Virus record (IMG/VR): IMGVR_UViG_3300020448_000034
Location: 1-26,916 of that record
Reading direction: 5' to 3' (one strand)
Source: a virus
Length of the DNA stretch: 26,916 nucleotides
Of the stretch, positions 4,935 to 21,543 are shown piece after piece. The notes under the pieces were generated by a model. The model did not search any database. It had not been told where the DNA came from and saw only the letters and a program-made list of their open reading frames with translations. Within the stretch, counting starts at the first letter, position 1. Every line of letters starts with the position of its first letter. A program made the position numbers and the translations under genes.

Positions 4935-5366
4935 ATGAGCAGTAAAATAACCGGGTGTGGAGCACTCTTCTATACCTTAGACACACAACGTTTCTTGTTG
5001 TTACATAGAACACAAAGTAAACAAAATCAAGTATGGGGATTAGTTGGTGGCACAACTACCAATGAAAATTTATGGGAAGGTCTCCAAAGAGAAATAAAAG
5101 AAGAAATTGGTGAACAAAAAATTATAAAAAGAATACCAATGGAAACTTTTATTAGTAATGATGAAAACTTTTTGTACCATACATACATTTGCGTTGTTCA
5201 AAATGAATTTATTCCAAAATTAAACACAGAACACGATGGCTATGCTTGGGTAAGTTTTGGTCATTGGCCTAAACCTTTGCACCAAGGATTACGTAAAACT
5301 ATCCAAAATAAAATGAATCAAATGAAATTGGACACAGTGTTCAAAATGTTAAAATTAATGCAATGA
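4935..5366 (+). CDS. Nudix hydrolase
   Basis: A 143-residue Nudix-fold pyrophosphohydrolase. The Nudix box Gx5Ex7REUxEExG is intact at residues 38-59 (GGTTTNENLWEG, then LQREIKEEIG); the position after the last Gly is Glu rather than a hydrophobic residue. The frame is open upstream to 4836, but the ATG at 4935 gives a compact Nudix N-terminus (MSSKITGCGALF) and does not overlap gp15, so I chose it; no clear Shine-Dalgarno precedes it. The stop overlaps the hldE start as ATGA, so the two are coupled. Possible substrates include nucleoside diphosphate sugars, oxidised nucleotides or NADH/ADP-ribose. The adjacency to an ADP-sugar pathway is suggestive but not proof. Confidence 0.85.
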   Translation: MSSKITGCGALFYTLDTQRFLLLHRTQSKQNQVWGLVGGTTTNENLWEGLQREIKEEIGEQKIIKRIPMETFISNDENFLYHTYICVVQNEFIPKLNTEHDGYAWVSFGHWPKPLHQGLRKTIQNKMNQMKLDTVFKMLKLMQ

Positions 5367-6622
5367 TTAAAATAATTGGTGATGTAATGCTAGACTCCTG
5401 GATTGAAGGAGACTGCGATAGAGTCAGTCCTGAAGCACCAGTCATTGTACTCAAAGAAAAAACTAAAGACTTCAACGTTGGAGGGGCAGGAAACCTCGCT
5501 TTAAACCTGTCAAACTTGGGCACAGACACGTGGCTATATGGTGCCGTGGGCAAAGACATTGCCGGGCACAAAATTATTGAAATTTTACTGCAAAATAACA
5601 TATCGTCACGTGTTTGCCAAGATGCAGAAATGACCACAATCAAAACAAGAATGGTGGGACAAAATGGTCAACATCTATTGAGAGTAGACAAAGAATTTTC
5701 ATATACCAAAAGCACAGTTGAAGATGAACTATTAAAAGACCTTACAGACGCTGACACTGTGTTGATCAGCGATTACAATAAAGGTGTAATACAAAAAGAT
5801 ACAGTTCAAAAAATTTTAAAAAAATGTAAAAATGTTTATGTAGATCCAAAGCAAGGATTCAGTAGATATATTGGAGCATTTTTAATAAAACCAAACATGA
5901 AAGAATACGAAGCATGGTTTGGTAAATTTAACATAGAAATTGCACAAGATAGATGCAAATCAAATTTATGGACTTGGTTAATTGTAACTGACGGTGCAAA
6001 TGGAATCCATGTGATAAGCAAAGATTCCTACAAACACATAAAAGGTGATGCAATAGAAGTATCAGATGTTAGTGGTGCAGGTGATTCTGTACTTGCCATT
6101 ATTGCTCATTACAGTCAATACAAAGATATTCCTGATGCTTGTGAACTGGCATACAAAGGTGCTCAGAAAATTGTACAAAAAAGAGGAGTATCTATTATTT
6201 CTAAAACAGATATTGAAGACACCATTGTATGGACAAATGGTGTGTTTGATATATTGCATAAAGGACATTTTGAATTATTAAAATTTGCAAAACAACAAGG
6301 GGATATTCTTATTGTTGGAATTAATTCAGATGCAAGTGTCAAAAGATTAAAAGGTGATGATAGACCATTTAACAATGCTATCATACGTGAACAACAATTA
6401 TTACAATTACCTTGGGTAGATAAAGTTGTTGTGTTTGAAGAAGATACTCCGATAGAAGCAATTAAAAATAATGGACCAGATATTATAGTCAAAGGTGGAG
6501 ATTATACTGTGGCAACAACAGTAGGAAATGAATTAGCAGATGTAAAAATCTTTCCAACGGTAAAAGGTTTTTCAACATCTAATATAGTGGACAAAGTTAA
6601 TGAACAAAACAATAAAAAATAA
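5363..6622 (+). CDS. hldE: Bifunctional heptose-7-phosphate kinase / heptose-1-phosphate adenylyltransferase
   Basis: A 419-residue HldE (RfaE) protein, catalysing C1 phosphorylation of D-glycero-beta-D-manno-heptose 7-phosphate and, after GmhB acts, ADP transfer to the 1-phosphate. Residues 1-285 are a PfkB/ribokinase-type kinase: GDVMLDSWIEGDCDRVSPEAP at the start, the substrate region VGGAGNLALN, and the ATP/anion-hole motif DVSGAGD (235-241) with the catalytic Asp241. Residues 288-419 are a nucleotidyltransferase: TNGVFDILHKGH (291-302, HxGH motif), GINSDAS, KRLKGDDRP, FEEDTP, VKGGDY, and STSN near the end. E. coli HldE has 477 residues, so loops are trimmed but all motifs stay. It overlaps both neighbours, which fits one translationally coupled operon. 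The gene is unusual in a phage structural region. Confidence 0.93.
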   Translation: MIKIIGDVMLDSWIEGDCDRVSPEAPVIVLKEKTKDFNVGGAGNLALNLSNLGTDTWLYGAVGKDIAGHKIIEILLQNNISSRVCQDAEMTTIKTRMVGQNGQHLLRVDKEFSYTKSTVEDELLKDLTDADTVLISDYNKGVIQKDTVQKILKKCKNVYVDPKQGFSRYIGAFLIKPNMKEYEAWFGKFNIEIAQDRCKSNLWTWLIVTDGANGIHVISKDSYKHIKGDAIEVSDVSGAGDSVLAIIAHYSQYKDIPDACELAYKGAQKIVQKRGVSIISKTDIEDTIVWTNGVFDILHKGHFELLKFAKQQGDILIVGINSDASVKRLKGDDRPFNNAIIREQQLLQLPWVDKVVVFEEDTPIEAIKNNGPDIIVKGGDYTVATTVGNELADVKIFPTVKGFSTSNIVDKVNEQNNKK

Positions 6623-7202
6623 CAAAATTATCATTACAGATGCTTTGAGTAAAGAACAATTTCAAGGTATTAGTGACATAATGTTTAGTGACAAATTTCC
6701 TTGGTTTTATCAAGATCACTTGGTACATCCACACCAAGCAAACACAGATGAAAGATTGCAAATACAATTTGTACACAAATTTCACGAAGTAAGCAACATT
6801 GTAACAGGACCAGAACTATGGAATATGTTAATACCAATATTTACTGTGTTACAACCACATACTTTTTTACGTGTTAAAGCAAATAATATTCCTAGTCAGA
6901 GTGAAATTGTCACTCATGGTATGCATTGTGATGTAAGTGTGCCATTAAGTTACACAGCAATTTTTTATTGTAATACAAACAACGGATACACAGAATTTAA
7001 AGATGGTGATAAAGTTCCTAGTGTTGCAAACTCTATGGTTATATTTCCTAGTTATATGGAACACTCAGGTAGCACTTGTACAGATGTGAGGTCTAGAGTA
7101 AACATCAATATTAATTATGTTGCACATCATTCAGATCAATTAACAAAAGATATAGCGCCAAAAGGTTCAGAAGATATTATAAAATTGTGGAGTAATACGT
7201 GA
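6600..7202 (+). CDS. 2OG-Fe(II) oxygenase (prolyl-hydroxylase-like fold)
   Basis: A 200-residue 2-oxoglutarate/Fe(II) dioxygenase. The facial triad is visible as HCD (His109, Asp111) and His155 in YMEHSG, with Arg164 or Arg166 in RSRVNINI positioned for 2-oxoglutarate. The segment between (YTAIFYCNTNNGYTEFKDG) is the usual jelly-roll pair of strands. The start chosen (6600) overlaps the end of hldE by 23 bases, and the stop overlaps the GTG of hldD, so it sits inside the heptose operon. The substrate is unknown; it could hydroxylate a sugar, a lipid A/glycan precursor or a phage protein. It is not closely similar to the oxygenase at 643-1284. Confidence 0.82.
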   Translation: MNKTIKNNKIIITDALSKEQFQGISDIMFSDKFPWFYQDHLVHPHQANTDERLQIQFVHKFHEVSNIVTGPELWNMLIPIFTVLQPHTFLRVKANNIPSQSEIVTHGMHCDVSVPLSYTAIFYCNTNNGYTEFKDGDKVPSVANSMVIFPSYMEHSGSTCTDVRSRVNININYVAHHSDQLTKDIAPKGSEDIIKLWSNT

Positions 7203-8017
7203 GGATTTGTTTAACAGGATATAAAGGATTTATAGGCAGTCATTTAGGAATGCAATTAGCAAAAGAAGGACACGAAGTTATTGGTTTTCCTTGGGAAAAC
7301 TACAATCATTTTCCAGATCCTTCTTTATACGATTGGGTAATACATCTTGGAGCAATATCAAGAACAACTGAAAGAAACGTAGATAAAATTTTAAAACATA
7401 ATCTAGAATACAGTATGAAACTTTTAGAAATGTGTGATACAATGGGCACAAATTTTCAATATGCCAGTTCGGCAAGTGTGTATGGTAACACTGGAAACTT
7501 CAAAGAAAATGGTGATGTGTATCCACTTAATGCTTATGCCTGGAGCAAATATATGTTTGATAGATTTGTTGCAAGTATAATGGGTGAATTTAAAGTTCTT
7601 GTGCAAGGTTTTAGATACTTTAATGTGTATGGAAACAATGAAGAAAGCAAAGGCGATCAAGCATCACCAATTACTAAATTTGCAAACCAAGCCAAAACAG
7701 GCAAAATAAAATTATTTGAAAACAGTGACAAATATCTAAGAGATTTTGTAAGTGTAAATGATGTGTGCGAAGTGCATGGCAAAATGCTTACAAAAGATGT
7801 GTCTGGAATTTTTAATATAGGTACAGGAGCACCTATTTCTTTTCAAAAAGTTGCTGATTTGGTTGCCAAAAAATACAATGCTGAAATAGAAATAGTGCCG
7901 ATGCCTGGTAAATTACAAGGACAATATCAGACCTACACCTCAGCAGATTTGACAGAATTAAATAAACATATACAACACAAATTTAAAACAGTTGAAGAAT
8001 TTTTAAATGATCAATAA
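7199..8017 (+). CDS. hldD: ADP-L-glycero-D-manno-heptose 6-epimerase-like (HldD), SDR family
   Basis: A 272-residue extended short-chain dehydrogenase. It has the NAD(P)-binding GxxGxxG (residues 7-13), the S91 / Y113xxxK117 catalytic set (ASSASVYG, YAWSK), and several stretches characteristic of HldD rather than of generic UDP-sugar epimerases: GFRYFNVYG, LRDFVSVNDV, VSGIFNIGTG, PGKLQGQYQTYTSADLT and FKTVEEF. HldD inverts C6 of ADP-D-glycero-D-manno-heptose to give the L,D form used by LPS heptosyltransferases. The start is GTG, with the GTGA overlapping the oxygenase stop. It is shorter than E. coli HldD (310). Another epimerase specificity within the family is possible, but pairing with hldE strongly supports this call. 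Confidence 0.88.
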   Translation: MRICLTGYKGFIGSHLGMQLAKEGHEVIGFPWENYNHFPDPSLYDWVIHLGAISRTTERNVDKILKHNLEYSMKLLEMCDTMGTNFQYASSASVYGNTGNFKENGDVYPLNAYAWSKYMFDRFVASIMGEFKVLVQGFRYFNVYGNNEESKGDQASPITKFANQAKTGKIKLFENSDKYLRDFVSVNDVCEVHGKMLTKDVSGIFNIGTGAPISFQKVADLVAKKYNAEIEIVPMPGKLQGQYQTYTSADLTELNKHIQHKFKTVEEFLNDQ

Positions 8018-8390
8018 AGAAGGTAAAGTAGATAAATCTTGGGGTTACGAATTAATATTCTCTTCCAATGATCTGTATTGCGGAAAACTTTTAGTATTCA
8101 CAAAAAAGAATGCTAAATTTTCTATGCATTTCCACAAAACAAAAGATGAAAGTTGGTTTGTTAATTCAGGTAGATTTTTATTAAGTTGGATTGATACGAA
8201 AGACGCAACACTTTACACAAAAGAATTGAAAGAAGGCGAAACATGGAGAAATTTGCCTCTAATGCCACATCAACTACAATGCATCACCGACAATGGCAGT
8301 ATTACTGAAGTTAGCACTGCTGATGATCCTGAAGATAATTATCGAATTATAAAAGGTGATAGCCAATTAAAACCTTTAGAAGAAAAATAA
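8007..8390 (+). CDS. Cupin protein (mannose-6-phosphate isomerase type II C-terminal-like)
   Basis: A 127-residue single-domain cupin. It begins KVDKSWGYELIF, like the cupin domain of type II phosphomannose isomerases and related small sugar-processing proteins. Metal ligands are visible as H41xH43 with Glu48 and Gly55 (cupin motif 1) and His88 in the MPHQLQ segment (motif 2). The ATG lies 11 bases inside the end of hldD, so it is the last gene of the heptose operon. A sugar-phosphate isomerase or sugar-modifying role fits the context; it could substitute for a missing step in heptose supply, but that is speculation. The stop is 1 base from the stop of the convergent 2341-residue gene. Confidence 0.8.
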   Translation: MINKEGKVDKSWGYELIFSSNDLYCGKLLVFTKKNAKFSMHFHKTKDESWFVNSGRFLLSWIDTKDATLYTKELKEGETWRNLPLMPHQLQCITDNGSITEVSTADDPEDNYRIIKGDSQLKPLEEK

Positions 8391-8391
8391 A

Positions 8392-11300
8392 TTACGCTTG
8401 TGCTTCTGACCAACGTAGTGTAACCGTTCCTGATACACCACCTGTACCTGCTGTTCTGTAAACGTTAATTGCCAACACGTCTGGACCATTAGGGAACGTA
8501 CCACGTCCACCTAGTGTTGTGTTAGTCAATACTTTGATCTTGTCAAGTGCCAAGTTTGCACGTTCACCCGGTACCGCAATGAATGAAAAGATTGTTTCAC
8601 CCGGTTGTGCGTATGGTGGTTGACCAAATACAAACGTTATGTTACTACCCGCTGTAATAGTTCCTGTTGATGTCTGTGTGAACACCACTCTGTAGAAGTT
8701 TGTTGCGCCAAATGTATCTAGTGGGTCAACCTGTGACACTGTTGTACCTGGTGGGAAATTAGCATAAGCCGTATCAACTTCTGTACCACTTACTGCACCT
8801 GAAGCCTCCCAAGTTGCTTGATCCATGTACAAGAAGTTTGTACCTGTTAGGTCACCACCTAGTGCAAAGTCAACTGCTTGTCCACCTGATATACCTGTGT
8901 GTCTATTGTTAAATCTTACAAAGTAGTATGAGTTATAGTCAATAATCTGTGTAACAACTGTACCTGCAGGGAATTGTCCTGAAGTAACTGACATACCAAC
9001 TCTTAAACCTTTGCCTTCCCATTGTGCTTCAAGGAAGTATGCATAGTTTCTGTTACCACCTAAGTTGAACCAATGGTTTGCTGTCGCAGTCATCTGTGCC
9101 TGTGTAGCCGCTGTTTGAGTTGTAGTTGATGCACCACCGTTCCAGTTAACTGAACCACCTGCCGCTATCTGACCAAAACTTGGCTGACCACCTTGGGCAA
9201 CACCCGTTAAGTCTGCCCAACCAATATCTGCTGGATCAATTGGATAGTTTTGTGGATTCAATACACCTTGTACGACCAACTGACCTTGGTCACCTGCTGT
9301 TGCAGGGTTAGATGTAATTTCAATACCGTCAAGTAGCAACTGTGCCCTGTTCAATAAGTCTCTGTCTCCTAAATCACCTGTTAATGCATTTGATACTGAT
9401 GGTGCTAGTCTTAATAGGAATACAGTTTGTCTTGTTGTTGTTAAAGAAAGACCTGTCGCCGCGTAACTGAATAGGTATCCTCTATCTTCGTCGAAGTTAC
9501 CATCTGTTAGATATGCTGATCCCCAGTGTGATATGTTTGGAGATGCTGTGTTGGATATCAATACAACACCTGAATTTCTAAAGTGTGTACTTGCTGTACC
9601 ACCTGTGTATGATCTTGTGGCACCTGAAGCAAAGTTTGTTAACTGTGCCGCACGTGTACAACCTGTTAATGTGTCACCAGACACACCTGTAAATGTAATA
9701 ACTTCGTTATCAATGTAAACTGTTCCACCTGTTGTTGGGAAGAATGAAGCATCAACTAACGGCACAGTAGTTTGTACAGCAGTCATATCTGCTTCTAGTT
9801 TTCCATTTGGACCTTCGTTTGTAACTTCATAACGTACAGGTTGGTTACCTGTTCTCATAAATGCTTCTGTGTTAATGTTAGAGTTTCTCATTCTGTGAGC
9901 AAATATAAATTCACCTTTGTGTCCTCTTGCCATCCAGTCAATAAATCCAGCCCCGTACCATGAAAATTGTATCCCAATCATCTGCATCTTAGATACGTTC
10001 CAATTGTATCCACTAGCACCTGTGCCATCCATCTTATCTCTGTTGAATTCTGATTGTTTTGCTTTTTTATCAACAACTGCACAAATTTTAACACCAGCAG
10101 AAGTGTTAACACCTCTATAATCTGGAGTAACGTTCATAGATGTATTACTTGCCACACCTGCAACCACGTGTGTCATACCTCTAATTACAACTCTATCACC
10201 TGCTTTAAGTTGTTCTCTAAATCTTGTACCAACACCTGTCACTGTGTTTGAGTCTGGAGTAACTGTTACAGTACCAGCCAACTGTCTTGTTGCTGTACGT
10301 TGTACTGCATTTGTTTGTTGTCCATCATATTCCCAGAAAATTCCGTTTTGATCATCAAATATACCTGACCTTACAGTTGCACCATTCCATTGATACAATG
10401 ATACCTGTGGTTGATCAGTAAATTCTGCTGTTGTGGCTCCTAGAGTAATTTGTGCTGTAACAGTTAACACTCTTTCACTTGTTACTGAAGCAACTGTGTA
10501 TGTTCCATCATATCCTGATGTTGCAATACCAACTAATCTTATTTTTGCACCAACCTGTAAATTGTGATCTACATCATCTACTGTTACTGTAATTGTTGAA
10601 CCAGAATTTGTACCATCTGCTGTTACATTTAAAATATCATAACTTGGAGCAAACAAGGCACCAGTTGTGTACATACAACCTTTACCTGATTGATATCTAA
10701 TATATTTTTTAGATTGACGTATTGCCTGTGCACCGTGTGCCGGACCACCTGTACCTAATTGTACACCACCATCAAATGGTCTGTGTACGAAGAATGAATC
10801 TGGTCTACCATACACAAATCCTTGCCATCCTGAATCTGTTATAGCACCTGGAGATCTAACTTGATATCTTAATTGTGTTGGTGATGGAATTGCTGTTGCA
10901 AGGAATGGTCCTGATGCAAGTATGTGATTGTTTGCGCCATCATCTGATTGTATTACTACAAGGAAAGCATTTCCTGGAACTAGTCCATGAGGTGTTGCAA
11001 AATCAATCTGCATTGTCGCCAATGCACTGTAAGTAATTGTTTGTGTTTGTGCTATGTTCTGTGATGTTGGATCTGATATTGTAACAGAACTGAATACTTG
11101 TAAACCTGTACCACCAACTGCTGTACCTTCGTGTGTACTTGCAAGGATTCCACCATTCGTATTAACTTGTTGTACTCTTACTGTGATATCATTTGTTATA
11201 TTTTGTCCACCTAAATTAGCACCTGAAATAATTAATTTGTCACCTACTGCATAGTTTGATCCTGTGCTAGTAACTTGACATTCTGTATATGCTGTTGATG

Positions 11301-14300
11301 AGTCCGTTTGGTTTGTTCTTGTTACACTGTATTGTGCACCAACACCTTGTGGTGTTCTGTTTGTACCTGCAACATTTAAACTTTGACCTGTACCTGTGTT
11401 TGCTGTACCTGATATATTAGCCAAAGAAGTTACAACACCTGTGCTTTGTGCATCTACTCCGCCAATATCAAATGTTAAATCATTTGTTGGTGTTGCACCA
11501 AATAATGTAGTACCTGGTATTGTAAATGATTGGTTAGCATTGTATCCTGAACCTGCATTGTTCAATGTTACTGTGTATGTTCCACCTGATAGTTCAACAT
11601 CAACAGATAAGCCAACACCTGTTCTGTATGCTTTGTTAACATTTGTGTATGTTTGTGTGTTTACTGCTGTACCAGTTACTGTAAATGTTGCAACTGCACC
11701 TGCTGATACTGTGTTAACAGTAATTTGACAATCATTTGCTGGTGATGATCCACCTAATTCCGTACCCGCAATGTCTATTGTTTCTGAACCTACAAACGAA
11801 TTACCATTGTTGCTGAAAGTTGCTGTGTAAACTGAACCTGTTCTGTTTATGTCAAACACTGCACCAGCCCCTGAAGCGGATGTTGTGTATGTTGGACTTG
11901 TATAATCAACATTGGCATCTGTACCTGTACCTGTTACCGCTAAACCTGTAATACCACCTTGTCCATTCACAGTTGAAACTGAAACATATGCATCATTCAC
12001 TGCCGCTGAACCACCAGCATCACCTCCATTGATAACATACAAGTCGCCTACATTGTAACCTGAAGTACCATCAACAGGAGCCGCTCCTGCTGAACCTGAG
12101 TATGCTTGTGATATTGTGCTAATTGGACCAGCACCAGTTCCACCAGTAACTGCTGTCACTGTGACTGTGACGTCATGCACACCATCCTGTCCACCAAATA
12201 GTGTACCTAATAATAAAATTTCTTGACCTACACCGTAATCATCTCCTGCCGCATTTACAGTAACAGTTGCAACTGCACCTGAAATTGCAATATCAAATGT
12301 GCCTGATGAACCAACAAGGTTTACACCTGTTGCTAATGCAGTGTAATCTTTTGTGTCAACTGCTGTACCGCCTACAGTGAAAGTTAATATACCACCGTTG
12401 CCATCAACTGAATCTACAGTGATTGTTGCATCGTTGGCAGTTGTCGCACCACCTAAATTTGTTCCTAAGAAAGTTAATACCTCATTTTGTACATAACCAG
12501 AACCAATACCAGTGATAACTGCTGAGTAAGTAGTTCCAGTTCTTGTTACATTGAACTGAGCATTAACACCTGCTTGGTTGGAAGTAAATGCTGGTGAATT
12601 ATATGTAACTTCTTGTGCTGGAGCATTACCACCTGCAGTTATAGTTTGTATTTCTCCGCTTCCGCTTACTGCTGTGACTCTTATATTCAAGTGATTTGAA
12701 GTAGTACCACCAAACTCTGAACCTGTAATTCTTATCACATCATTTTGTGCATAACCTGAACCTGCGTTGTTAATTGCAACTGTGTAGTTACCGCTTGCCG
12801 CTGTAACATCAAACGTTGCATTTGAACCACCTGGTGTTGTTTGTGTACCTGAAATGTTTGTGTATGTTGGTGAATTTAACGCAACTGAATATGTTCCATT
12901 TGTTTTTGTTAAATTTAATTGTGCACCTGTACCTGCATTACCATTGAATGTAGGTGCAACACCTGTGGCTGTACCTGTACCAGTGAATGCTGATCCACTT
13001 GCTGTTACTGTTAAAATTTCTCCACCTGTGTCAATCGTTTGAACAAGCACTGTACAATCATTTGCTGGTGTTGATCCACCTAAGTCTGTTCCTGATATTA
13101 CTATTGCATCACCTACTGCATAGTTTTCACCTGATGCAACTATTGCCGCAGAATAATTTCCACCTGTTCTTGTAATATTAAATCTTGCTAATTGTCCTTG
13201 TGGTGAATAATTAGCACCTGCTAAACTTGTATATTGAGTAACATCACCTACCAGAGGTTGTGTCAATGGTGCTGACAATGTTAAGGAATTTCCTGCAACG
13301 TTTGTGATTGTTACTGCATAACCATCACCTCTATCAATTACAGAGTTTTGTACAATACCTGCTGAATCCGCCACTTGGATTTCTGTTACACCTGCAAGAT
13401 AATCACCTGTTACAGTTGGAGAAGCCAATGCACCACCTGTTCCATTGATTGCTGTAATTTGTGTTCCAGTTTGAATACCCGTTCCTGTTAATGGAGCACC
13501 AATTGGTGGAGTTGCTCCAGAGTATGGAAGGAATGTTGTGCCACTTAATGCCGCAAGTGCTGTTACAATACTACCAGATGAACCATTGTCCGACACACTG
13601 AAAGTTGGAAAACCAATTGCCGCACCTGTGTAAAATGCACCTTCTCTTAATTGTGTTGCATTTGTACTAATTGTTGTTGGATTAACTTGTCCAACTTTTG
13701 CTTTTGCGTAATATGTAAATTGTGTTGTGCTGACAACTGTGTTTACTGTGAAAGAACCAGCGGCTCTACTTGCACCTTGTACACCATTGTCAAAACCTGT
13801 AATTGTTAAAGGTTGTCCTGCTTCAAAACCGTGCGGTCCAACAGTTGTTACTGTTATTAAAGATGAACCAATACCTTGTGTACCTGCTGATGCATCTGAT
13901 GTCACAGTTGAAACGTCAAAGTCTGTTCCTGGTACTTCATAAATTGATGGATAACCTCTTTGTGTAGAAATTGCACTCCACTTCGTTGGCTGAAGACCGT
14001 ATTCAAAGTCAGCGTCAAGCATTGATTCAGGTTGTGCAACCCTCATACGTTCAATAGCATCTGTACCAAAGTCGTAAGGTCTAACTGTTAATTGATTATC
14101 TTCTACGAAAATTTGTATTCTATCTGTTGCGTTGTCAGTTGATGTATCTGTTTCTAAAAATAATGTTGTAATTGTGTCATTACCGTGAAATGCTTGTGGG
14201 AAATCTGGATCAACAAAAGCAGTTGGATTTGATGTATCTTCAGCATACTCTCTTCTGTATTCAACTGTTGCGCCTTTTGCCGGATCATTAAATGTGTACA

Positions 14301-15417
14301 ACACATTGTTGTCAGATGCATTTGTGATTAAAAGTAATCTTTCTAATTGTATATTTTCAGGAACTTTAACACTTGAAATTCCGTTGTTAACCTGTGCAGG
14401 TAAATTATCTAAACCATTTATAACAACATCGGTAATAATATTAAATAATTCTGTCACACGTGTTGTTGCACCTGCTTCACCTGGTGTGCCTAAAATTGTT
14501 TGTTGTGTTACAACAGGATTTTGTCTTGTTGTAAAAGCATTTCCTGGTATTACATAATTGTTTATGATATTTCTTACTTCGTTTTTAACAGCCTCTTCAG
14601 GTTGTCTATCACCACTTAATACTGATACTGTACCAACCCAATATGTTGATGCATTATATCTTGATTGTTCATTACCACCATATCTTAAATCTTTTAGAAT
14701 ACCATCAATGTTGTAACCAATATCTCTTTCACATAGATATGAATCATATGTATAGTTTTCAAACACATAAATTGAACTTACCAATGCTGGTAATGTTAAA
14801 ATACCATTGTCTATTGCATTTACAATGACATTATGATTTGTTGTGTAACCTGATACACCGCCTGCTTCGCCGTTTGTACCTGTTGTATTCTGTGAAAAAC
14901 CATCTGTGTTTATAGTGCTGTATGCTATTCCTGGTAAAATATAATTTACAACAATGTCTCTTGCTTTTGTAAGATAAGCAATTTCTGGATCACCATCATT
15001 TGCTAATTGTAAAACACCGTCAGCAAAGTATGTTTCTGATTGTGCTCTTATATTTTCGTTACCACCATATCTTGTATCTCTGTAAGCCGCATTAACAACT
15101 TTACCTGTGTCAGTTTTTATATCTGCCGCAAGTTTTGTATAACCTGCAAATGGTGATATGTTGCCTGCAACTTGTACTGCTACCCAAGCCGCCACTTCTG
15201 CTTTGATGTATTCTAAATTATTTGTAATTCTGTTTGATGCATTAGGATATAAATCAGCCGCTGTGTCTTGTGCAATTTTAAAATCTATAAAAGCATTTGA
15301 TTCATCTTTTAACCATTCTTTGTTAGCATTGATTTGTGCCCAGGCATTAGGATACAGATTACCACTTAATGGAATACCTGGTGTAAATTTATAATTTTCT
15401 ATTCGTCTTTTTGCCAT
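8392..15417 (-). CDS. Giant tail fibre/virion structural protein (2341 residues)
   Basis: A very long structural protein, probably a distal tail fibre or baseplate-attached adhesin, resembling large virion proteins of marine T4-like phages. Residues 1-350 are helical and contain an imperfect duplication, each copy with a DxRYGGN motif. Residues 450-580 hold 'AQPESMLDADFEYG' and a TVGPHGFEAG beta module. Residues about 735-1445 are about nine beta repeats with consensus GSGY..GD.I.I.GT.LGG..P.ND..I.V..V. A second HGL module follows near 1475. The C-terminal third (about 1800-2341), starting YNWNVSKMQMIGIQFSWYG, has the features of conserved cyanophage fibre ends. A Shine-Dalgarno AGGAG lies in the end of the preceding gene, 12 bases from the ATG; AAGAG nearer the start is an alternative. 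Which end binds the host is unknown. Confidence 0.8.
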   Translation of the reverse strand: MAKRRIENYKFTPGIPLSGNLYPNAWAQINANKEWLKDESNAFIDFKIAQDTAADLYPNASNRITNNLEYIKAEVAAWVAVQVAGNISPFAGYTKLAADIKTDTGKVVNAAYRDTRYGGNENIRAQSETYFADGVLQLANDGDPEIAYLTKARDIVVNYILPGIAYSTINTDGFSQNTTGTNGEAGGVSGYTTNHNVIVNAIDNGILTLPALVSSIYVFENYTYDSYLCERDIGYNIDGILKDLRYGGNEQSRYNASTYWVGTVSVLSGDRQPEEAVKNEVRNIINNYVIPGNAFTTRQNPVVTQQTILGTPGEAGATTRVTELFNIITDVVINGLDNLPAQVNNGISSVKVPENIQLERLLLITNASDNNVLYTFNDPAKGATVEYRREYAEDTSNPTAFVDPDFPQAFHGNDTITTLFLETDTSTDNATDRIQIFVEDNQLTVRPYDFGTDAIERMRVAQPESMLDADFEYGLQPTKWSAISTQRGYPSIYEVPGTDFDVSTVTSDASAGTQGIGSSLITVTTVGPHGFEAGQPLTITGFDNGVQGASRAAGSFTVNTVVSTTQFTYYAKAKVGQVNPTTISTNATQLREGAFYTGAAIGFPTFSVSDNGSSGSIVTALAALSGTTFLPYSGATPPIGAPLTGTGIQTGTQITAINGTGGALASPTVTGDYLAGVTEIQVADSAGIVQNSVIDRGDGYAVTITNVAGNSLTLSAPLTQPLVGDVTQYTSLAGANYSPQGQLARFNITRTGGNYSAAIVASGENYAVGDAIVISGTDLGGSTPANDCTVLVQTIDTGGEILTVTASGSAFTGTGTATGVAPTFNGNAGTGAQLNLTKTNGTYSVALNSPTYTNISGTQTTPGGSNATFDVTAASGNYTVAINNAGSGYAQNDVIRITGSEFGGTTSNHLNIRVTAVSGSGEIQTITAGGNAPAQEVTYNSPAFTSNQAGVNAQFNVTRTGTTYSAVITGIGSGYVQNEVLTFLGTNLGGATTANDATITVDSVDGNGGILTFTVGGTAVDTKDYTALATGVNLVGSSGTFDIAISGAVATVTVNAAGDDYGVGQEILLLGTLFGGQDGVHDVTVTVTAVTGGTGAGPISTISQAYSGSAGAAPVDGTSGYNVGDLYVINGGDAGGSAAVNDAYVSVSTVNGQGGITGLAVTGTGTDANVDYTSPTYTTSASGAGAVFDINRTGSVYTATFSNNGNSFVGSETIDIAGTELGGSSPANDCQITVNTVSAGAVATFTVTGTAVNTQTYTNVNKAYRTGVGLSVDVELSGGTYTVTLNNAGSGYNANQSFTIPGTTLFGATPTNDLTFDIGGVDAQSTGVVTSLANISGTANTGTGQSLNVAGTNRTPQGVGAQYSVTRTNQTDSSTAYTECQVTSTGSNYAVGDKLIISGANLGGQNITNDITVRVQQVNTNGGILASTHEGTAVGGTGLQVFSSVTISDPTSQNIAQTQTITYSALATMQIDFATPHGLVPGNAFLVVIQSDDGANNHILASGPFLATAIPSPTQLRYQVRSPGAITDSGWQGFVYGRPDSFFVHRPFDGGVQLGTGGPAHGAQAIRQSKKYIRYQSGKGCMYTTGALFAPSYDILNVTADGTNSGSTITVTVDDVDHNLQVGAKIRLVGIATSGYDGTYTVASVTSERVLTVTAQITLGATTAEFTDQPQVSLYQWNGATVRSGIFDDQNGIFWEYDGQQTNAVQRTATRQLAGTVTVTPDSNTVTGVGTRFREQLKAGDRVVIRGMTHVVAGVASNTSMNVTPDYRGVNTSAGVKICAVVDKKAKQSEFNRDKMDGTGASGYNWNVSKMQMIGIQFSWYGAGFIDWMARGHKGEFIFAHRMRNSNINTEAFMRTGNQPVRYEVTNEGPNGKLEADMTAVQTTVPLVDASFFPTTGGTVYIDNEVITFTGVSGDTLTGCTRAAQLTNFASGATRSYTGGTASTHFRNSGVVLISNTASPNISHWGSAYLTDGNFDEDRGYLFSYAATGLSLTTTRQTVFLLRLAPSVSNALTGDLGDRDLLNRAQLLLDGIEITSNPATAGDQGQLVVQGVLNPQNYPIDPADIGWADLTGVAQGGQPSFGQIAAGGSVNWNGGASTTTQTAATQAQMTATANHWFNLGGNRNYAYFLEAQWEGKGLRVGMSVTSGQFPAGTVVTQIIDYNSYYFVRFNNRHTGISGGQAVDFALGGDLTGTNFLYMDQATWEASGAVSGTEVDTAYANFPPGTTVSQVDPLDTFGATNFYRVVFTQTSTGTITAGSNITFVFGQPPYAQPGETIFSFIAVPGERANLALDKIKVLTNTTLGGRGTFPNGPDVLAINVYRTAGTGGVSGTVTLRWSEAQA
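11083..13215 (-). repeat. About nine tandem 75-95-residue beta repeats within the giant tail protein
   Basis: Protein-level repeats covering residues about 735-1445. Typical copies start near 740, 865, 950, 1035, 1180, 1265 and 1355; a truncated copy lies near 825 and one lacks its first strand near 1117. The shared core is 'Y-x-V-x-I-x-x-x-G-S-G-Y' followed by 'G-x-x-[LF]-G-G-x-[ST]-x-x-N-D-x-x-[IV]-x-V'. The DNA copies are diverged, so this is old duplication rather than recent expansion. The repeats probably form a beta-sheet shaft or a string of Ig/jelly-roll units. Confidence 0.75.
14398..15135 (-). repeat. Internal duplication in the N-terminal part of the giant tail protein
   Basis: Two diverged copies of about 115 residues (residues about 95-208 and 225-340). 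Both read D..RYGGNE..R..[AS].[ST]Y, then a GD..PE stretch, then 'N.Y[VI][IL]PG.A[YF][ST]T', then GEAG and a final NGI/NGL...LPA segment. The copies are adjacent, which supports a tandem duplication event. Confidence 0.7.
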
Positions 15418-15424
15418 TCTCTTT

Positions 15425-17287
15425 TTATACTCCTAATGCAATCGCTAACACTGTGGCTGTGTTATCAACGTACTGCTTTTTAGTTACGTCATCAGCACTG
15501 CTTGGGTCGTTTGTTACAGTCGCACCTGTAAAAGCCGCCGAAGCCGCAGTGGTTAAACCTATTGTAGTACTATTTAACGTTCCTTGGGCAGAAACAATAT
15601 TTGAAAAGGTTCCATTTCTTGGAATAACTCCCCCAATAGTAACGTTATCTACAGCACCTAAATCAATCGGTCTTATTGATAAATTTCCACCTGCTTGTGG
15701 ACTAATAGTTACATCAGCATTTGGTGTCAAACTAACATTATTTGTTGCTGTCAATTGCTCTGCATTCACGTTCATGTTAGTGATCGTACCAACTGTTGCT
15801 GGTTGAATAGTTACTAAACCTGTTCCTGTTGGTTTAATTTCAACATTTGCATTTACGCCATTGTTTAAAAAATTTCCTGTGTTTAAAATTGAACTGAATA
15901 CACCTGCTCCAATTAATGAAGGTTGTGCAACTGTGATTATACCTGCTGGAATTCCATCTGCATCACCGTAAAATAAAGAATCTGGAGCATCAACAGGAAC
16001 TTCATAAGTCAATGTTCCTGATTGTTTACCTTGTGCTTCTGCACCTGTCAGTGTAGTTGAAACTGGAATATCTATATAAGATGAAACTGTAATTTGTGTT
16101 GTAATTTGACTTCTTATATTGTTTTGATAATTGGCAAAATTATTTGCAACATCAAGATAACTGAATAATCTAATATCGCCTGATTCATAAGAAATTAATT
16201 CACTGCTGTCAGGTTGTTGAACACCTGTAGTCTCTTTAGTTGCGATAGTACTATCTGCCTGTGCCATCGCATAAATCGTATCTACTGCACTGTATAAAAC
16301 TTGGTTCTGATATGTACCGCCGTTATAAACATAATTTAATTCATTTTTACCATTGAACATAGTAACTTTTTTACCTGACAATGGTGTAACTGCTGACCAA
16401 TTTACTATTGTAGAATTATCTGTGTTTTGTGGATCTAGAGTATAGTTGTAAAAAGTTGGTCCTGCTGGTAAGTATTGGTCTTCATGCAACAAACCATTGT
16501 AGGTTATGATGTGTTTTACAGATGCGTTCTGAGTATAGTTTGAATATTGTAACGCCAATTGTGCACCATTACCAAAACCAACTATTGCTATTTCTCTTGT
16601 GTCAACATTATCGTAACCATCTAAACTTGCTATGATCGAATCTATTAATGCAATATCATTTGCTTTACTTGTTTGATAACCAACGTTCCATTCATTGCCA
16701 TAACCTTGTGGAGCAATTAAAATTCTGTCGTTAACCCAGTTTACTTTTGCAATACCTTGTCCTTGTGTTTCATTTGTGTCATGTAAAACAATTAAAACTG
16801 GAATTTTTTTACCTGCTAAGGCTGTGCCTGTTGTATTAGGAACAAGTACCTGTGCTGTTCGGTCATAACCACTTTGTTGTTGTGCCCATGTTTGCGAAAA
16901 AGTTAATGAACCTGTTGCAAGTGTACTACCTGTAACAATATTTTGATGACTTAAACCTGTGCTGTATAAATTTCCTGGTGTGTTTGAGTCATTAGAATCA
17001 GGTTGGAATACATTGAAAGTTAAACTTGATAGATTTAATACAAAATTATAAGTTTTACCACGTTCAAGTGTTATGTTAGGATTATTTCCTGAAACAGCCG
17101 TACCATCTTTTAACCATGTAAACGCACCCGCAGTCTCATTTGCGTTATAATCTGGTGCTGGTGGAGTAACTGGTGGAGTGTATGTGTTTGTAATAGTTCT
17201 TACAACAACATTTCCAGCATTATCAACCGTAAATCCAGGACTTTTAAATCCGTGTTCCGTTTCAAATTGTTTTAATACAACTGCCAT
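15425..17287 (-). CDS. Tail protein with embedded degenerate PHB-depolymerase/LpqC-type esterase domain
   Basis: A 620-residue structural protein. Residues about 45-130 form a beta domain with an 'ITLERGKTYNF' strand often seen in phage tail modules. Residues about 135-395 follow the alpha/beta-hydrolase layout of the PHB depolymerase/LpqC esterases: PVLIVLHD, ILIAPQGYGNEWN, a VDTRE strand, then GFGNGA where the family has G-x-S-N-G. The nucleophile Ser is Gly239, the acid is Glu316 by alignment, and the final His falls on Asn382. Residues about 400-620 are a fibre-like tail end, with IRPIDLGAVDNVTIG, 'RNGTFSNI' and TKKQYVDN. The domain is therefore probably a binding module rather than an enzyme. 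It lies between the 144-residue and 2341-residue genes in the tail operon, with a 1-base gap upstream. Confidence 0.72.
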   Translation of the reverse strand: MAVVLKQFETEHGFKSPGFTVDNAGNVVVRTITNTYTPPVTPPAPDYNANETAGAFTWLKDGTAVSGNNPNITLERGKTYNFVLNLSSLTFNVFQPDSNDSNTPGNLYSTGLSHQNIVTGSTLATGSLTFSQTWAQQQSGYDRTAQVLVPNTTGTALAGKKIPVLIVLHDTNETQGQGIAKVNWVNDRILIAPQGYGNEWNVGYQTSKANDIALIDSIIASLDGYDNVDTREIAIVGFGNGAQLALQYSNYTQNASVKHIITYNGLLHEDQYLPAGPTFYNYTLDPQNTDNSTIVNWSAVTPLSGKKVTMFNGKNELNYVYNGGTYQNQVLYSAVDTIYAMAQADSTIATKETTGVQQPDSSELISYESGDIRLFSYLDVANNFANYQNNIRSQITTQITVSSYIDIPVSTTLTGAEAQGKQSGTLTYEVPVDAPDSLFYGDADGIPAGIITVAQPSLIGAGVFSSILNTGNFLNNGVNANVEIKPTGTGLVTIQPATVGTITNMNVNAEQLTATNNVSLTPNADVTISPQAGGNLSIRPIDLGAVDNVTIGGVIPRNGTFSNIVSAQGTLNSTTIGLTTAASAAFTGATVTNDPSSADDVTKKQYVDNTATVLAIALGV

Positions 17288-17288
17288 C

Positions 17289-17723
17289 TTAACTTGTTAC
17301 CTGAGTTCCGCCTACCAATGCGTTCTGTGTTGAAAAATAAGACGCACCAAAAATTACTTTACTGCCTGTGTATTTTTCTGTTTGTGATTTATCTGCTGGA
17401 TCAACAGTTACTTTCACAAGTGAATTATCCACAGTGCTGTTTAGTTTTATTAAATTATTACCTAAATTTGATCTGCCATATATTGTAAGACTTGATTGAT
17501 TAGGACTTGCTACTACCAAAACTTTTAACATTTCTTTGTTGTTTGTATCGTAATCTACACTGATTGTATATTCTGCAGACGTGAATGTATTCACGTGCCA
17601 TTGGTCTAAAACTAGACCTTCTTCTACGACTAGATATGGTCCATTATATGAAAAATTTAAGCCATTCTTCAATAATAGAGTGTTTCTGTCTCCTTTGCCA
17701 AAAAATCTTGATACATCAAACAT
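17289..17723 (-). CDS. Hypothetical virion-associated protein (144 residues)
   Basis: No enzyme motif. The protein is beta-rich, with 'AEYTISVDYD', KMLK-like 'EMLKVLVVA', SSLTIYGRSN and a final VIFGASYF strand, as in small structural proteins found beside fibre genes of marine T4-like phages. It has a Shine-Dalgarno AAGGAAA upstream, and its stop is 1 base from the start of the 620-residue tail gene, so the two are likely co-translated. It could be a tail fibre connector or chaperone. The start is separated by 66 bases from the glycosyltransferase stop, with no clear promoter. Confidence 0.6.
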   Translation of the reverse strand: MFDVSRFFGKGDRNTLLLKNGLNFSYNGPYLVVEEGLVLDQWHVNTFTSAEYTISVDYDTNNKEMLKVLVVASPNQSSLTIYGRSNLGNNLIKLNSTVDNSLVKVTVDPADKSQTEKYTGSKVIFGASYFSTQNALVGGTQVTS

Positions 17724-17789
17724 ATAGAAATTTCCTTGTTATAGTGTATTTACCTAATTGGCGGGAGTTGTGTTGTGTGTATAAAAAGG

Positions 17790-18767
17790 CTATTTACGGG
17801 TATTTTTACCGTGTTTTATCAATCTATGTACTGACTTCACGATTCTATCCTCAGTTTCGCCATCCATAGCCATAATGCCTTCATTTATACGGTCTGAAAA
17901 CTCGTCTGATGTAACTCTTATAGGACTGTATACTCTATCGTCTTTTCCTAAGTCAATTACATTGAATTTTTCTTCATCTGGAAAACTGGTGTTTATAGGA
18001 TAAGTTGAACCTATCACAACTGTTGCTGTTTTATCATAGGAATAAGCCATGTGTTGTCCTACACTATCGCAACCAAGGAAATGATCTGCTTGTTTTATCA
18101 CAGCCATCCATACTCTAATGTGTACTCCCATTGGAGTCGCAACAGGCTTGTTCATGTGTTTTTGAAAGTCTAATGGAAATTCGCTCATTATCATTACACC
18201 AACATCTTTGGATAATTGACGCACAATGTTCCAGATATTTTTAAGTTCAATACTTCTGCCTGTGACATCAACAATATCCGGTGTTTTTTCTTTCTCGCTT
18301 TCTTTTAATTCTTCAGGTTGAGCACCTCTTCCGAATGGTTGGAAAACAATAACTTTGTCTTTACCAGTTTTTTCTTTTACTTCTGCAATCATTTTTCTTG
18401 CAAGTAATAATTCTTCTTTAGAAAGTCTTAAATTAGGTTTTGGTAAGTCTCTTATTCCTTTATCATTTATAGCAATATCATATGCCTGTGCTAAATTACA
18501 TTTTTGATTGTAGTATTCCCATATTCTATATGGTTCTGGACTGATTAAATCTCTATCTTTCAGTAAATCTTGGAATAAATTTTTGTGCCAATTGTCATAT
18601 GCTCTGAAATGCAACTTAGGATGACCTTTGAATACATCTGTACCACCCTCACAAATCAGTATTGGGTCTTTATCTGGATTTTCTTCTAGATATTTTTCTA
18701 CTGCTGGTATGGAACTAACCATTCTACCAGCACCGCCATTTAAAAAGATTGCTGTTTTTCTATCCAT
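17790..18767 (-). CDS. GT9-type (heptosyltransferase-like) glycosyltransferase, copy 2
   Basis: A 325-residue protein with the two-lobed GT-B pattern of GT9, the family of ADP-heptose:LPS heptosyltransferases. The N-terminal lobe begins with a Gly-rich 'FLNGGAGRMVSSIPA' turn (residues 8-22). The C-terminal lobe has VFQPFGRG (residues 141-148) and the donor-site motif FLGCDSVGQHMAYSY (230-244), followed by 'ATVVIGSTYP'; the usual family form is D-T/S-G-x-x-H-L-A. It is clearly paralogous to the gene at 20593-21543, sharing HKNLF, SPEPYR, NQKCN and SKEELL stretches. Its start overlaps the end of the carbamoyltransferase by 8 bases. The donor sugar is inferred from the family and from the phage hldE/hldD. 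Confidence 0.78.
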   Translation of the reverse strand: MDRKTAIFLNGGAGRMVSSIPAVEKYLEENPDKDPILICEGGTDVFKGHPKLHFRAYDNWHKNLFQDLLKDRDLISPEPYRIWEYYNQKCNLAQAYDIAINDKGIRDLPKPNLRLSKEELLLARKMIAEVKEKTGKDKVIVFQPFGRGAQPEELKESEKEKTPDIVDVTGRSIELKNIWNIVRQLSKDVGVMIMSEFPLDFQKHMNKPVATPMGVHIRVWMAVIKQADHFLGCDSVGQHMAYSYDKTATVVIGSTYPINTSFPDEEKFNVIDLGKDDRVYSPIRVTSDEFSDRINEGIMAMDGETEDRIVKSVHRLIKHGKNTRK

Positions 18768-20589
18768 TTTTCACTTTCACTAGTTTATTGTATTCAGGCA
18801 AGTACAAATATTCAATTTCACTATGTATTAATGTTCTTACAGCATCATCTAATGTTTCAACTAATGGTTCTCCACCTAAATTAAATGATGTGTTGAAAAT
18901 AATAGGACAATCTGTTTGCTTATGAAATTCTTTTATTAGATCATAATACAAAGGATTCTGTTCTCTCTTAACAGATTGTATTCTACAAGTGCCATCTACG
19001 TGTATAATACTTGGAATTTTTTCTTCAATGCCTGGTTGACAATTTACAGCATACATCATATGAGGTGTTTCGTCCATGCCTCTAAGGTCAAACCATTCAT
19101 GTACGTAATCATGTAAAATCGTGCCTGCAAATGGTCTAAAATATTCTCTATGTTTTACCGTGTTTACGTGATCTTTACCATTAGGGTCTCTTGGATCATA
19201 CAATATTGATCTGTTTCCTAATGCTCTTGGCCCGTTTTCTGATTGTCCTTGGAAAATAGACACAATATTTCTATCAGCAATTATTTTCACAACTTCTTCT
19301 TTTGTTGCATCAACTAATTCTACACCTGGTTGACTGCAAATTTTTTCAATTTGTTCTGTAGTATATGTTCTTTTTGGACCTAAGTATAGTGTAGGTTCAT
19401 CAACTTTCTTTTCTTTTGTTTGTGTTAAACTATAATAGAACAACATTGCGGCACCCATTGCCGTACCCGCATCATTTGACACTGGTTCTACATAAAATTT
19501 AATGCCGTCTTTTTGTAAACTTTCTAAATAATAATAATTTGCTACACAATTTAATCCATAGCCTCCAGAAAACACAACATTTTTACAACCACTCATTTCA
19601 ACTGCTTTGTAAATTAAGTCTAAACATTGTTTTTGTGATTCTTTTTGTACAGCATAAGATAAATCTCTTCTACTTTGCAATTTTGTCCAGTCATCTGTCT
19701 TGTCAGATGAAGGTGTTTCATCTAAAAATGGATAGTGCTGACTGTTTACGACCGATGCATTAGGATATGTTGGAATAATTAAATTCCTATTTGATAATTC
19801 AAAGTGACCTTCTTTTTGAAATAATGGTGGAATTACATCATTTTTCTTTCCATAAGGAAACAATCCCATTGTCTTGCCTGCTTCAATGGCACTGAATCCG
19901 CAATATTGTGTGACTGCTTCGTAAACTTTTACAATACCTGCTTTGTCTGAAAATATTGCCTCGTGGGTATGTCCTGCTTCTCCTATATTTTCTGAATCCA
20001 TTTGTGGATAATATGCTCCAGGTGTTGCGTTACCTGTGCCATAATGTTTGTAAAGTGCAAAAATATCATTTGGATAATCACAACTAAAAATACTTTCAAC
20101 TTCAAAAACAGTCATATCGCCTGCAATACTATTTTGTATAGGAATAAAAGTTCCTGCACCGTCTACAATTACTGCAACTGCTTTGTCAAAGCCTGATCTG
20201 TAAAATGCACACGCGGCATGAAGTTTGTGATGTATATGTGATAAGTCAATTACTTGAGGATGTTCTGTTTTGTGTATGTGTTGATCAATTAAACCAAGTT
20301 TTCTAGCCATACCTGTGTACACATCATCACCTGAGTAATCTACTCTTCCTGTTGAAGGATCTTTAAGTGACTGTGTATGTGCAATAACAAGATAGTCAAT
20401 TTTGTCTGTGTATTTTAAAATCTCTACCATGGATGCATATGGACCGCCATCGTATTTTCTTCTAGATAATCTTTCTTCTTCAATAGAAAATACTACTTCA
20501 CCGTCTTTTAATAAACAAACACCTGCATTGTGTCCTCTGGCTATTGCGGCAATGTAACCTGTTTTGTTATATTGTTCTATGTTGTCCAT
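18760..20589 (-). CDS. NodU/TobZ-family carbamoyltransferase
   Basis: A 609-residue protein with all hallmarks of O-carbamoyltransferases that use carbamoyl phosphate and ATP via a carbamoyladenylate. The N-terminal Kae1-like domain begins GHNAGVCLLKDG, with 'EEERLSRRK', a metal-binding HHKLHAA (His120, His121, His124) and a D143-G-A-G stretch. Further on are SGGYGLNCVAN (341-351), EPVSNDAGTAMGAA, and the C-terminal domain with GPRALGNRS (453-461), REYFRPFAGT and NTSFNLGGEPLV (566-577). No key residue seems lost, so it is probably active. Shine-Dalgarno GAGGAA precedes the start. It is flanked by two GT9 paralogues, which points to a sugar acceptor made by them. NodU-type genes occur in some marine phages; the acceptor here is unknown. 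Confidence 0.92.
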   Translation of the reverse strand: MDNIEQYNKTGYIAAIARGHNAGVCLLKDGEVVFSIEEERLSRRKYDGGPYASMVEILKYTDKIDYLVIAHTQSLKDPSTGRVDYSGDDVYTGMARKLGLIDQHIHKTEHPQVIDLSHIHHKLHAACAFYRSGFDKAVAVIVDGAGTFIPIQNSIAGDMTVFEVESIFSCDYPNDIFALYKHYGTGNATPGAYYPQMDSENIGEAGHTHEAIFSDKAGIVKVYEAVTQYCGFSAIEAGKTMGLFPYGKKNDVIPPLFQKEGHFELSNRNLIIPTYPNASVVNSQHYPFLDETPSSDKTDDWTKLQSRRDLSYAVQKESQKQCLDLIYKAVEMSGCKNVVFSGGYGLNCVANYYYLESLQKDGIKFYVEPVSNDAGTAMGAAMLFYYSLTQTKEKKVDEPTLYLGPKRTYTTEQIEKICSQPGVELVDATKEEVVKIIADRNIVSIFQGQSENGPRALGNRSILYDPRDPNGKDHVNTVKHREYFRPFAGTILHDYVHEWFDLRGMDETPHMMYAVNCQPGIEEKIPSIIHVDGTCRIQSVKREQNPLYYDLIKEFHKQTDCPIIFNTSFNLGGEPLVETLDDAVRTLIHSEIEYLYLPEYNKLVKVKNG

Positions 20590-20592
20590 AAT

Positions 20593-21543
20593 TTATTCCT
20601 CAATCGGATCACCGTTTACTGCTGATACCACGTAATCTTCTATTTCTGGAGTCATAGTCATAATGGTTTCATTTTTTCTGCTAATTCTTTCATCATAACT
20701 TATTCTGATAGGATCATATTCTCTTGTCATTTGTCCTAAATCAATTATATTAAAATTTTCTACATCAGGATATGAAGTGTTTTCAGGATATGTAGCACCC
20801 AATACAACATTTGCTGGTGTACCAACCGCATATGCTAAATGTTGACCAACTGAATCACAACCTAAAAATACATCTGCATATTTTATTATGCCTGCCCATT
20901 GTCTTAACTGTACTTTTTCAGGTAATGCAACCTCATCTGGAAAACCTGCGTCTTTAAAATCTATGCCAAATTCGGACATAAGCACAACTGCAAAGTCTTT
21001 TTTCATTAATTTACGTATTATATTTTTCAAATTATGAAACTCAATACTACGATTACTTGCGTCTACAAAAGAATTGTCTATTTGTTTTATAGCACGTCCA
21101 AACGGTTGTATAATAACAACTTTTTCTTTTTTTGTTTTTTCTTTAATTTCGTCTATGGCTTTTCGGGCAGTTAATAATTCTTCTTTACTTAAAACCAAAG
21201 TTGGTTTAGGTAAATCTCTTACTCCTTGCTTGTTAATTAAAATATCGAATGCTTGAGCAATATTACATTTTTGATTGAAATATTCATTCACCCTGTAAGG
21301 TTCTGGACTTACAATATCCATGTCTATTAATTTTGTATGAAATAAATTTTTATGATACATATCATAAGTTTTTCCGTCCAGTGTTGGATGTCCATTTAGT
21401 ATGTCACATATTCCTTCTATCACAATAATAAAGTTAGGATCGGTGTTTTCTTCATGGTATTTTTCCAAGGCAGGTATTGCAGATATGATTCTACCCATTC
21501 CACCATTAAGAAAAAAAGCCTTAGGTCTTTTATTTTCTGTCAT
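20593..21543 (-). CDS. GT9-type (heptosyltransferase-like) glycosyltransferase, copy 1
   Basis: A 316-residue paralogue of the gene at 17790-18767, on the other side of the carbamoyltransferase. The Gly-rich turn FLNGGMGRIISAIPA (residues 11-25), IIQPFGRA (144-151) and the donor-site FLGCDSVGQHLAYAVG (226-241), then 'ANVVLGATYP', match GT9. By eye, the two copies look about half identical across their length, with similar spacing, so both are probably functional and may add successive residues. The stop is 3 bases before the carbamoyltransferase ATG. No Shine-Dalgarno is visible before its own start. Confidence 0.77.
   Translation of the reverse strand: MTENKRPKAFFLNGGMGRIISAIPALEKYHEENTDPNFIIVIEGICDILNGHPTLDGKTYDMYHKNLFHTKLIDMDIVSPEPYRVNEYFNQKCNIAQAFDILINKQGVRDLPKPTLVLSKEELLTARKAIDEIKEKTKKEKVVIIQPFGRAIKQIDNSFVDASNRSIEFHNLKNIIRKLMKKDFAVVLMSEFGIDFKDAGFPDEVALPEKVQLRQWAGIIKYADVFLGCDSVGQHLAYAVGTPANVVLGATYPENTSYPDVENFNIIDLGQMTREYDPIRISYDERISRKNETIMTMTPEIEDYVVSAVNGDPIEE

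Follow-up and report, generated by a model that had tools for sequence, protein, structure and literature searches.

Heptose genes have been recorded in several phages. Sullivan et al. (2010) reported that T4-GCs 304, 305, 307 and 308 co-occur in P-SSM2, S-SM2 and S-SSM7, and questioned their function (PMC3037559). Heptose genes of SynMITS9220M01 were named in a 2020 announcement (PMC7378029), and rfaE was recorded in pelagimyophages (PMC7029224). In the literature that we searched, we found no paper uniting GT9 glycosyltransferases, a carbamoyltransferase and heptose genes as one phage system. Here we analyse such a set in the complete IMG/VR virus record IMGVR_UViG_3300020448_000034, whose 26,916 bases (the window) are a fragment of a larger genome. 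Our favoured interpretation, to which we give a probability of about 0.55, is that two gene groups in the window form one late-gene module that would make, transfer and carbamoylate heptose, with tail or adhesin proteins of the phage as the acceptor.

The original prediction placed hldE, an HldD-like gene and a cupin on the plus strand, and a GT9 / NodU-type carbamoyltransferase / GT9 group among tail genes on the minus strand. Both groups are present where predicted, with gene identities well beyond what chance would give. Two genes had been missed: an oxygenase between hldE and hldD, and a Nudix gene that overlaps the start of hldE. The features central to the analysis are as follows.

4836..5366, plus strand: Nudix hydrolase (Pfam NUDIX, 7.5e-14), start codon uncertain; overlaps the end of gp15 and the start of hldE
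5363..6622, plus strand: predicted HldE, fused heptose-7-phosphate kinase / heptose-1-phosphate adenylyltransferase (NF008454, 317 bits, E 1.5e-94)
6600..7202, plus strand: 2-oxoglutarate (2OG)-Fe(II) oxygenase of the prolyl-4-hydroxylase type (phrog_274, 1.2e-43; phrog_81); overlaps hldE and hldD
7199..8017, plus strand: HldD-type ADP-glyceromanno-heptose 6-epimerase, short form of 272 aa (TIGR02197, 231 bits)
8007..8390, plus strand: cupin, candidate sedoheptulose-7-phosphate isomerase (PDB profile, Pfam Lyx_isomer, metal site)
8392..15417, minus strand: giant virion structural protein of 2341 aa, between the two halves of the set (phrog_5838); possible acceptor
17790..18767, minus strand: GT9-like protein b (phrog_8954), paralogue of GT9-like a
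18760..20589, minus strand: O-carbamoyltransferase (CT) of the NodU/TobZ family (Pfam Carbam_trans_C and Carbam_trans_N)
20593..21543, minus strand: GT9-like protein a (phrog_8954; Pfam GT9, 6.7e-5; fold)

The plus strand reads gp14, gp15, Nudix, HldE, oxygenase, HldD-type epimerase and cupin, and from Nudix through cupin all five reading frames overlap (overlaps in this operon are 4-23 nt). Read from right to left, the minus strand encodes two small tail proteins, three Cys/Gly-rich paralogues, two phrog_9740 proteins, GT9-like a, CT, GT9-like b, p144, p620 and the giant structural protein; the CT and GT9-like b frames overlap by 8 nt. The two transcription units meet back to back at 8390/8392, with the giant gene ending 1 nt from the end of the cupin gene. 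Nudix adjoins gp15 even in relatives where the heptose genes are missing, and thus probably lies outside the heptose set.

It had been suggested that no such complete set was described for a T4-like phage. This is contradicted by P-SSM2, P-SSM5, S-CAM1, S-CAM3, S-SSM7 and Sf-FS3, which carry a near-contiguous set; single-cell marine virus contigs also carry it nearly contiguously. The T4-GC 302-308 cluster (P-SSM2, S-SSM7, S-CAM1, S-CAM3, Sf-FS3) encodes the same GT9-like protein, CT, adenylyltransferase, heptose kinase, cupin and HldD, and adjoins tail fibre genes and, P-SSM2 excepted, neck genes. It differs from the window in that kinase and adenylyltransferase are separate, a haloacid dehalogenase (HAD) phosphatase is present, there is a single GT9-like gene, only HldD lies on the opposite strand, and the phages belong to another clade. 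What is new is a carbamoyl-heptose gene set in the marine jumbo T4-like clade. In Bellamy and SynMITS9220M01, the same cupin overlaps genes for GDP-D-glycero-D-manno-heptose (HddA, HddC), a non-homologous GHMP kinase and guanylyltransferase taking the place of HldE; Bellamy also has a glycosyltransferase and a carbamoyltransferase nearby, the latter only 26.6% identical to CT. The 7-O-carbamoyl heptose of the Pseudomonas lipopolysaccharide (LPS) core, made by WapO, likewise pairs heptose with a carbamoyltransferase, whereas an LPS acceptor is unsupported here. We take CT to resemble WapO by family.

Co-occurrence across related genomes had been chosen beforehand as the check on which the hypothesis could fail. 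The linkage was found, and the hypothesis survives. CT (at least 45% identity) is present in 23 of 50,697 named phage records and the GT9-like gene (at least 38%) in precisely those 23, all of them within the 48 that are positive for HldE. HldD (at least 39%) is present in 22 of the 23, the remaining record being a 4-kb fragment. Because S-CAM1, S-CAM3 and P-SSM2 each occur in several records, the 23 represent about ten lineages. The converse fails: P-TIM68, S-SM2 and S-T4 have heptose genes and other glycosyltransferases without this GT9/CT pair. In a metagenomic sample of 38 contigs found through the GT9-like gene, HldE is present in 25 and the cupin in 26, and every contig longer than 45 kb (13/13) carries both, with kinase and adenylyltransferase separate in G010 (L043).

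The set is rearranged among relatives. In L043, consecutive genes of one operon encode GT9, CT, cupin, GmhB, adenylyltransferase, kinase and HldD. The L106 genes, in the order HldE, cupin, HAD phosphatase, HldD, overlap at their starts. In P-SSM2, S-CAM3, S-SSM7 and Sf-FS3, the genes for GT9, CT, adenylyltransferase, kinase, HAD and cupin share a strand and HldD faces them. Because these rearranged relatives keep the genes together, we regard the predicted split between two convergent operons as real in the window, where the operons lie back to back, but as a local arrangement only, L043 having a single operon.

The individual proteins are consistent with the proposed roles. One 419-aa open reading frame carries PF00294 and PF01467 and matches TIGR02198 (233 bits) and TIGR02199 (144 bits); its best PDB matches are the heptose-7-phosphate kinase 4e84 (E 1.9e-33) and 5x9q. 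The PfkB motif DxxGAGD and the nucleotidyltransferase motif GxFDxxHxGH are kept across 22 homologues, and the protein is probably HldE-like in function although divergent in sequence. The closest solved structures to the epimerase are HldD enzymes (PDB 1eq2, E 2e-48). Its conserved S91, Y113, K117 and K151 match S116, Y140, K144 and K178 of E. coli HldD, K178 being the second base. The oxygenase keeps its HxD...H...R residues (H109, D111, H155, R166).

CT has both Pfam domains above cut-off (PF16861 Carbam_trans_C, 197.3 bits, 1.8e-58; PF02543 Carbam_trans_N, 84.1 bits, 1.6e-23) and matches 7xb6, GdmN and TobZ in the PDB. The metal- and ATP-site residues (HxxxH, DG, GPRALGNRS: H120, H124, D143, G453-S461) are kept in 20 sequences, and identity to the S-SSM7 homologue is 62%. 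Gene linkage is what points to heptose as the CT acceptor. The close cyanophage relatives of CT that we examined are of the NodU/TobZ O-carbamoyltransferase type, not the pyrimidine-synthesis type. Cyanophage carbamoyltransferases have been written up as pyrimidine-synthesis genes (PMC9146016, PMC10436341), a label that the family assignment corrects. In three relatives (L078 11863-12648, L097 11861-12646, L036 10942-11847), a gene within the heptose operon or next to CT encodes a protein of 261-301 aa with an SGNH-hydrolase-like start, MK(R)LFTFGCS(Y/F)T; it is a possible further acyl- or glycan-modifying enzyme.

The GT9-like proteins are more divergent. GT9-like a scores 22.8 bits with Pfam GT9, barely above the 22-bit cut-off, and GT9-like b, 54% identical to it, has no Pfam match of its own. 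Because a sequence profile of the family gave zero matches in the PDB, we turned to an AlphaFold model built on 30 aligned sequences from the window and contigs (predicted local distance difference test score, pLDDT, 85). A PDB fold search with this model returned GT9 enzymes in all of the first 30 places (E 3.8e-11 to 1.4e-7), including 3tov, WaaC, WaaF and the protein heptosyltransferase TibC. Aligned with two bacterial GT9 proteins, the profile covers the C-terminal nucleotide-binding half, and the family shares the C-terminal DSxxxH nucleotide-binding motif of WaaC, WaaF and TibC.

From gene content, conserved active-site residues, the GT9 fold and linkage, all directly observed, we infer the substrates, direction and acceptor of a pathway. 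The cupin would convert sedoheptulose 7-phosphate to heptose 7-phosphate, the GmhA step in bacteria. HldE would phosphorylate D-glycero-D-manno-heptose 7-phosphate and, once a 7-phosphatase has acted, activate the product to ADP-heptose. One or both GT9-like proteins would then transfer the heptose, and CT would use carbamoyl phosphate and ATP to add an O-carbamoyl group. The predicted single system, in which heptose is made, transferred and carbamoylated, draws support from family assignments, the HldE, HldD and CT active sites, the GT9 fold and co-occurrence. In P-TIM68 (L007) and S-SM2 (L211) the heptose genes adjoin transketolase-like genes, which might supply sedoheptulose 7-phosphate.

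The first step of this pathway deserves particular attention. As predicted, neither GmhA nor GmhB was found in the window, itself a genome fragment. A search with TIGR00441 (gmhA) found none in 22 phage records, 5 of them complete, and one weak match (SynMITS9220M01, 47 bits) in 7 further records, 5 of them complete; gmhA is therefore missing from 9 of 10 complete carriers. TIGR00441 also gave no match in Synechococcus elongatus, the cyanobacterial control. The cupin, on the other hand, is found in every cassette arrangement examined, with relatives in 35 cyanophage-type records among named phages. Its metal site (HxH/E/H) is invariant. The best PDB match of its profile is the D-lyxose ketol-isomerase 2y0o (E 3.5e-5), and Pfam Lyx_isomer (PF07385) matches 14 of 18 members, the best at 7.7e-7; the window protein itself reaches E 9.7e-4 and 18.8 bits against a cut-off of 20.8. 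Lyxose/mannose-type isomerases convert ketoses to manno-configured aldoses and back, which is also the chemistry of GmhA. Overlap with the non-homologous HddA-type kinase and HddC-like guanylyltransferase genes in Bellamy and SynMITS9220M01 fits an early step common to both heptose routes. We tentatively propose, at somewhat less than even odds, that the cupin is a sedoheptulose-7-phosphate isomerase replacing GmhA; no report of a cupin-type heptose isomerase was found in the literature that we searched, and no cupin in bacterial hldE neighbourhoods across 80 loci. There is about an even chance that it is instead a metal-dependent oxygenase or nucleotide-sugar tailoring enzyme, with heptose 7-phosphate coming from host GmhA. 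Arguing for this are the PHROG label 'cysteine dioxygenase', a mixed fold search (oxalate decarboxylase, quercetinase, D-lyxose isomerase, cysteine dioxygenase) and the presence in SynMITS9220M01 of both the cupin and the weak GmhA-like protein. Counter to this are the profile and Pfam matches to D-lyxose/mannose-type isomerases, the lack of gmhA in 9 of 10 complete carriers and of any match to it in the cyanobacterial control, and the HddA/HddC overlap.

A cyanophage protein named 'phosphoheptose isomerase' (T4-GC 306), 106-114 aa long, contains the HAD motif DxDGT and resembles the capsule phosphatases of TIGR01689, not GmhA. It is a HAD phosphatase, and its name is a propagated misannotation. 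Examples, all matching TIGR01689, are:

L002 13312-13656: small HAD gene misannotated as phosphoheptose isomerase
L003 13597-13917: small HAD gene misannotated as phosphoheptose isomerase
L004 19055-19390: small HAD gene misannotated as phosphoheptose isomerase

Among relatives, the phosphatase is a GmhB homologue in L043 and a small HAD protein in L106 and cyanophages.

Several observations count against a joint heptose module directed at the virion. No phosphatase gene was found in the window, and no copy of the L106-type HAD was found in 19 relatives; for the window phage the 7-phosphatase is presumably host-encoded. HldE falls under the NCBIfam equivalog cut-off (317 vs 521 bits), and HldD, with its short N-terminal half, under that of TIGR02197 (231 vs 274.6; the L106 protein reaches 266). 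Phage forms this divergent are expected to score in this range, and we therefore propose their substrates rather than read them from the models. In the GT9-like family, an invariant R18 (30/30, in NGGxGR) stands where GT9 enzymes such as WaaC, WaaF and TibC have the catalytic Asp of LGD; the equivalence to WaaC D13 is drawn from the N-terminal motif and predicted secondary structure, the N-terminal half being unaligned by the profile. Since the first 30 PDB matches are all GT9 and GxGR replaces LGD, we read the modelled family as having a GT9 fold and a changed active site. Three short contigs (L040, G034 = L229, G039 = L228) have GT9 and CT with the heptose genes absent at the expected place, which in G034 and G039 is between Nudix and the giant structural protein; those genes may lie elsewhere in the genome. 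Finally, the position of the cassette among tail genes may reflect only a variable region.

These points bear on whether there is a joint pathway at all. Surface-glycan genes could have accumulated separately and at random in a variable region, and 'stuffer DNA' has been raised as a possibility for cyanophage LPS genes (PMC3037559). In its favour are the size and variability of cyanophage LPS clusters, the incompleteness of the window set and the broken linkage in the three contigs. We nevertheless consider this quite improbable, given overlapping operons, conserved catalytic residues, and gene sets that are rearranged and co-retained across two divergent phage clades. It is even less probable that CT and the oxygenase modify phage DNA, giving bases such as 5-carbamoyloxymethyl-cytosine, and lie near heptose genes incidentally. 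Many of these phages do have NodU/TobZ-like proteins and 2OG oxygenases, and other carbamoyltransferases lie near thymidylate synthase in S-RIM44. Arguing against it, the named phages with this CT subfamily are exactly those with the GT9-like gene, CT overlaps GT9-like b in the window, and no base-modification gene was found adjoining CT.

A stronger rival concerns the acceptor. The module could act on LPS or another surface glycan of the host, changing the receptor during infection and so blocking superinfection or rebinding to debris. This is the usual reading of phage LPS genes (PMC9602691, PMC7029224), and WapO carbamoylates HepII of the Pseudomonas LPS core (PMC8005017). The relatives of the window phage by capsid and neck proteins infect proteobacteria, whose LPS often contains heptose. 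Given the known carbamoylated heptose and these hosts, we regard LPS modification as a serious possibility, though not the likelier one. Counter to it, the genes lie in late tail-gene blocks and not with early genes, we noticed neither a membrane nor a polymer-export partner among them, and cyanobacterial LPS is reported to be without heptose (PMC4390846), yet cyanophages carry the set. Because both phage clades have the cassette amid tail genes and the sugar is reportedly missing from cyanobacterial LPS, we lean towards the phage's own tail or adhesin proteins, encoded in that gene block, as acceptor.

The giant structural protein is one candidate for this role. Its C-terminal part has homologues at 79-96% coverage and 44-48% identity in S-CAM1, S-CAM3 and MH319766, cassette carriers that are the only named phages with long homologues. 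This restriction hints at joint transfer with the cassette and could indicate a substrate role; alternatively, the protein may have hitch-hiked in a host-recognition region. The small tail protein p144 has no homologue in named phages. Elsewhere among the tail genes, the three consecutive Cys/Gly-rich paralogues (window 22971-25953; 320-338 aa, with many CC and GG motifs; phrog_4205 for two tested) are probably tail-tip adhesins, and a tail protein at 15425-17287 has an internal, weak carboxylesterase-like Abhydrolase_2 domain (E 4.4e-4), possibly a surface-glycan esterase. As the T4 late promoter TATAAATA has no copy anywhere in the window, the late timing of the cassette is proposed from gene position. 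Scans of the window for sigma-70 promoters and terminators were at chance level.

The window phage probably belongs, by protein similarity, with marine jumbo T4-like phages. Its gp13 is closest to those of the jumbo phages PA5oct (46%) and Phosso (45%), and gp23 of a sister contig is 67-70% identical to those of Phosso, Vibrio 2.275.O, GAP32 and PA5oct. Between the divergent gp13 and gp14 lies a near-perfect palindrome, ACTGATATTTATCAGT (window 2101-2116); the gp13 inversion is conserved in relatives. We reject a cyanophage origin on the gp13 and gp23 kinship and on the absence of psbA from 17 related contigs, themselves incomplete. The window has no DNA-level match to named phages. Among those phages, the cassette genes are closest to cyanophages (CT 62%, GT9-like 55%, HldD 47.5%). 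Exchange between phage clades is therefore the simplest reading of jumbo-type gp13 and gp23 beside a cyanophage-like cassette. The best bacterial relatives of HldE (SAR116 and other Alphaproteobacteria) are only 37% identical, so HldE allows no host call.

Put together, the most far-reaching version of this interpretation has the cupin as a new, non-homologous isomerase class that makes the pathway self-contained even in hosts lacking GmhA, a GT9 enzyme without the catalytic Asp placing carbamoyl-heptose on the phage's own tail proteins, and a module exchanged between cyanophages and jumbo T4-like phages. That all of it holds is unlikely. If the cupin is an isomerase, it would be a new enzyme class filling a hole in the pathway. 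If the module is real, two distant and abundant marine phage lineages would share a portable module for a sugar reportedly missing from cyanobacterial LPS, and the 2010 question of whether such genes are functional or stuffer would become testable.

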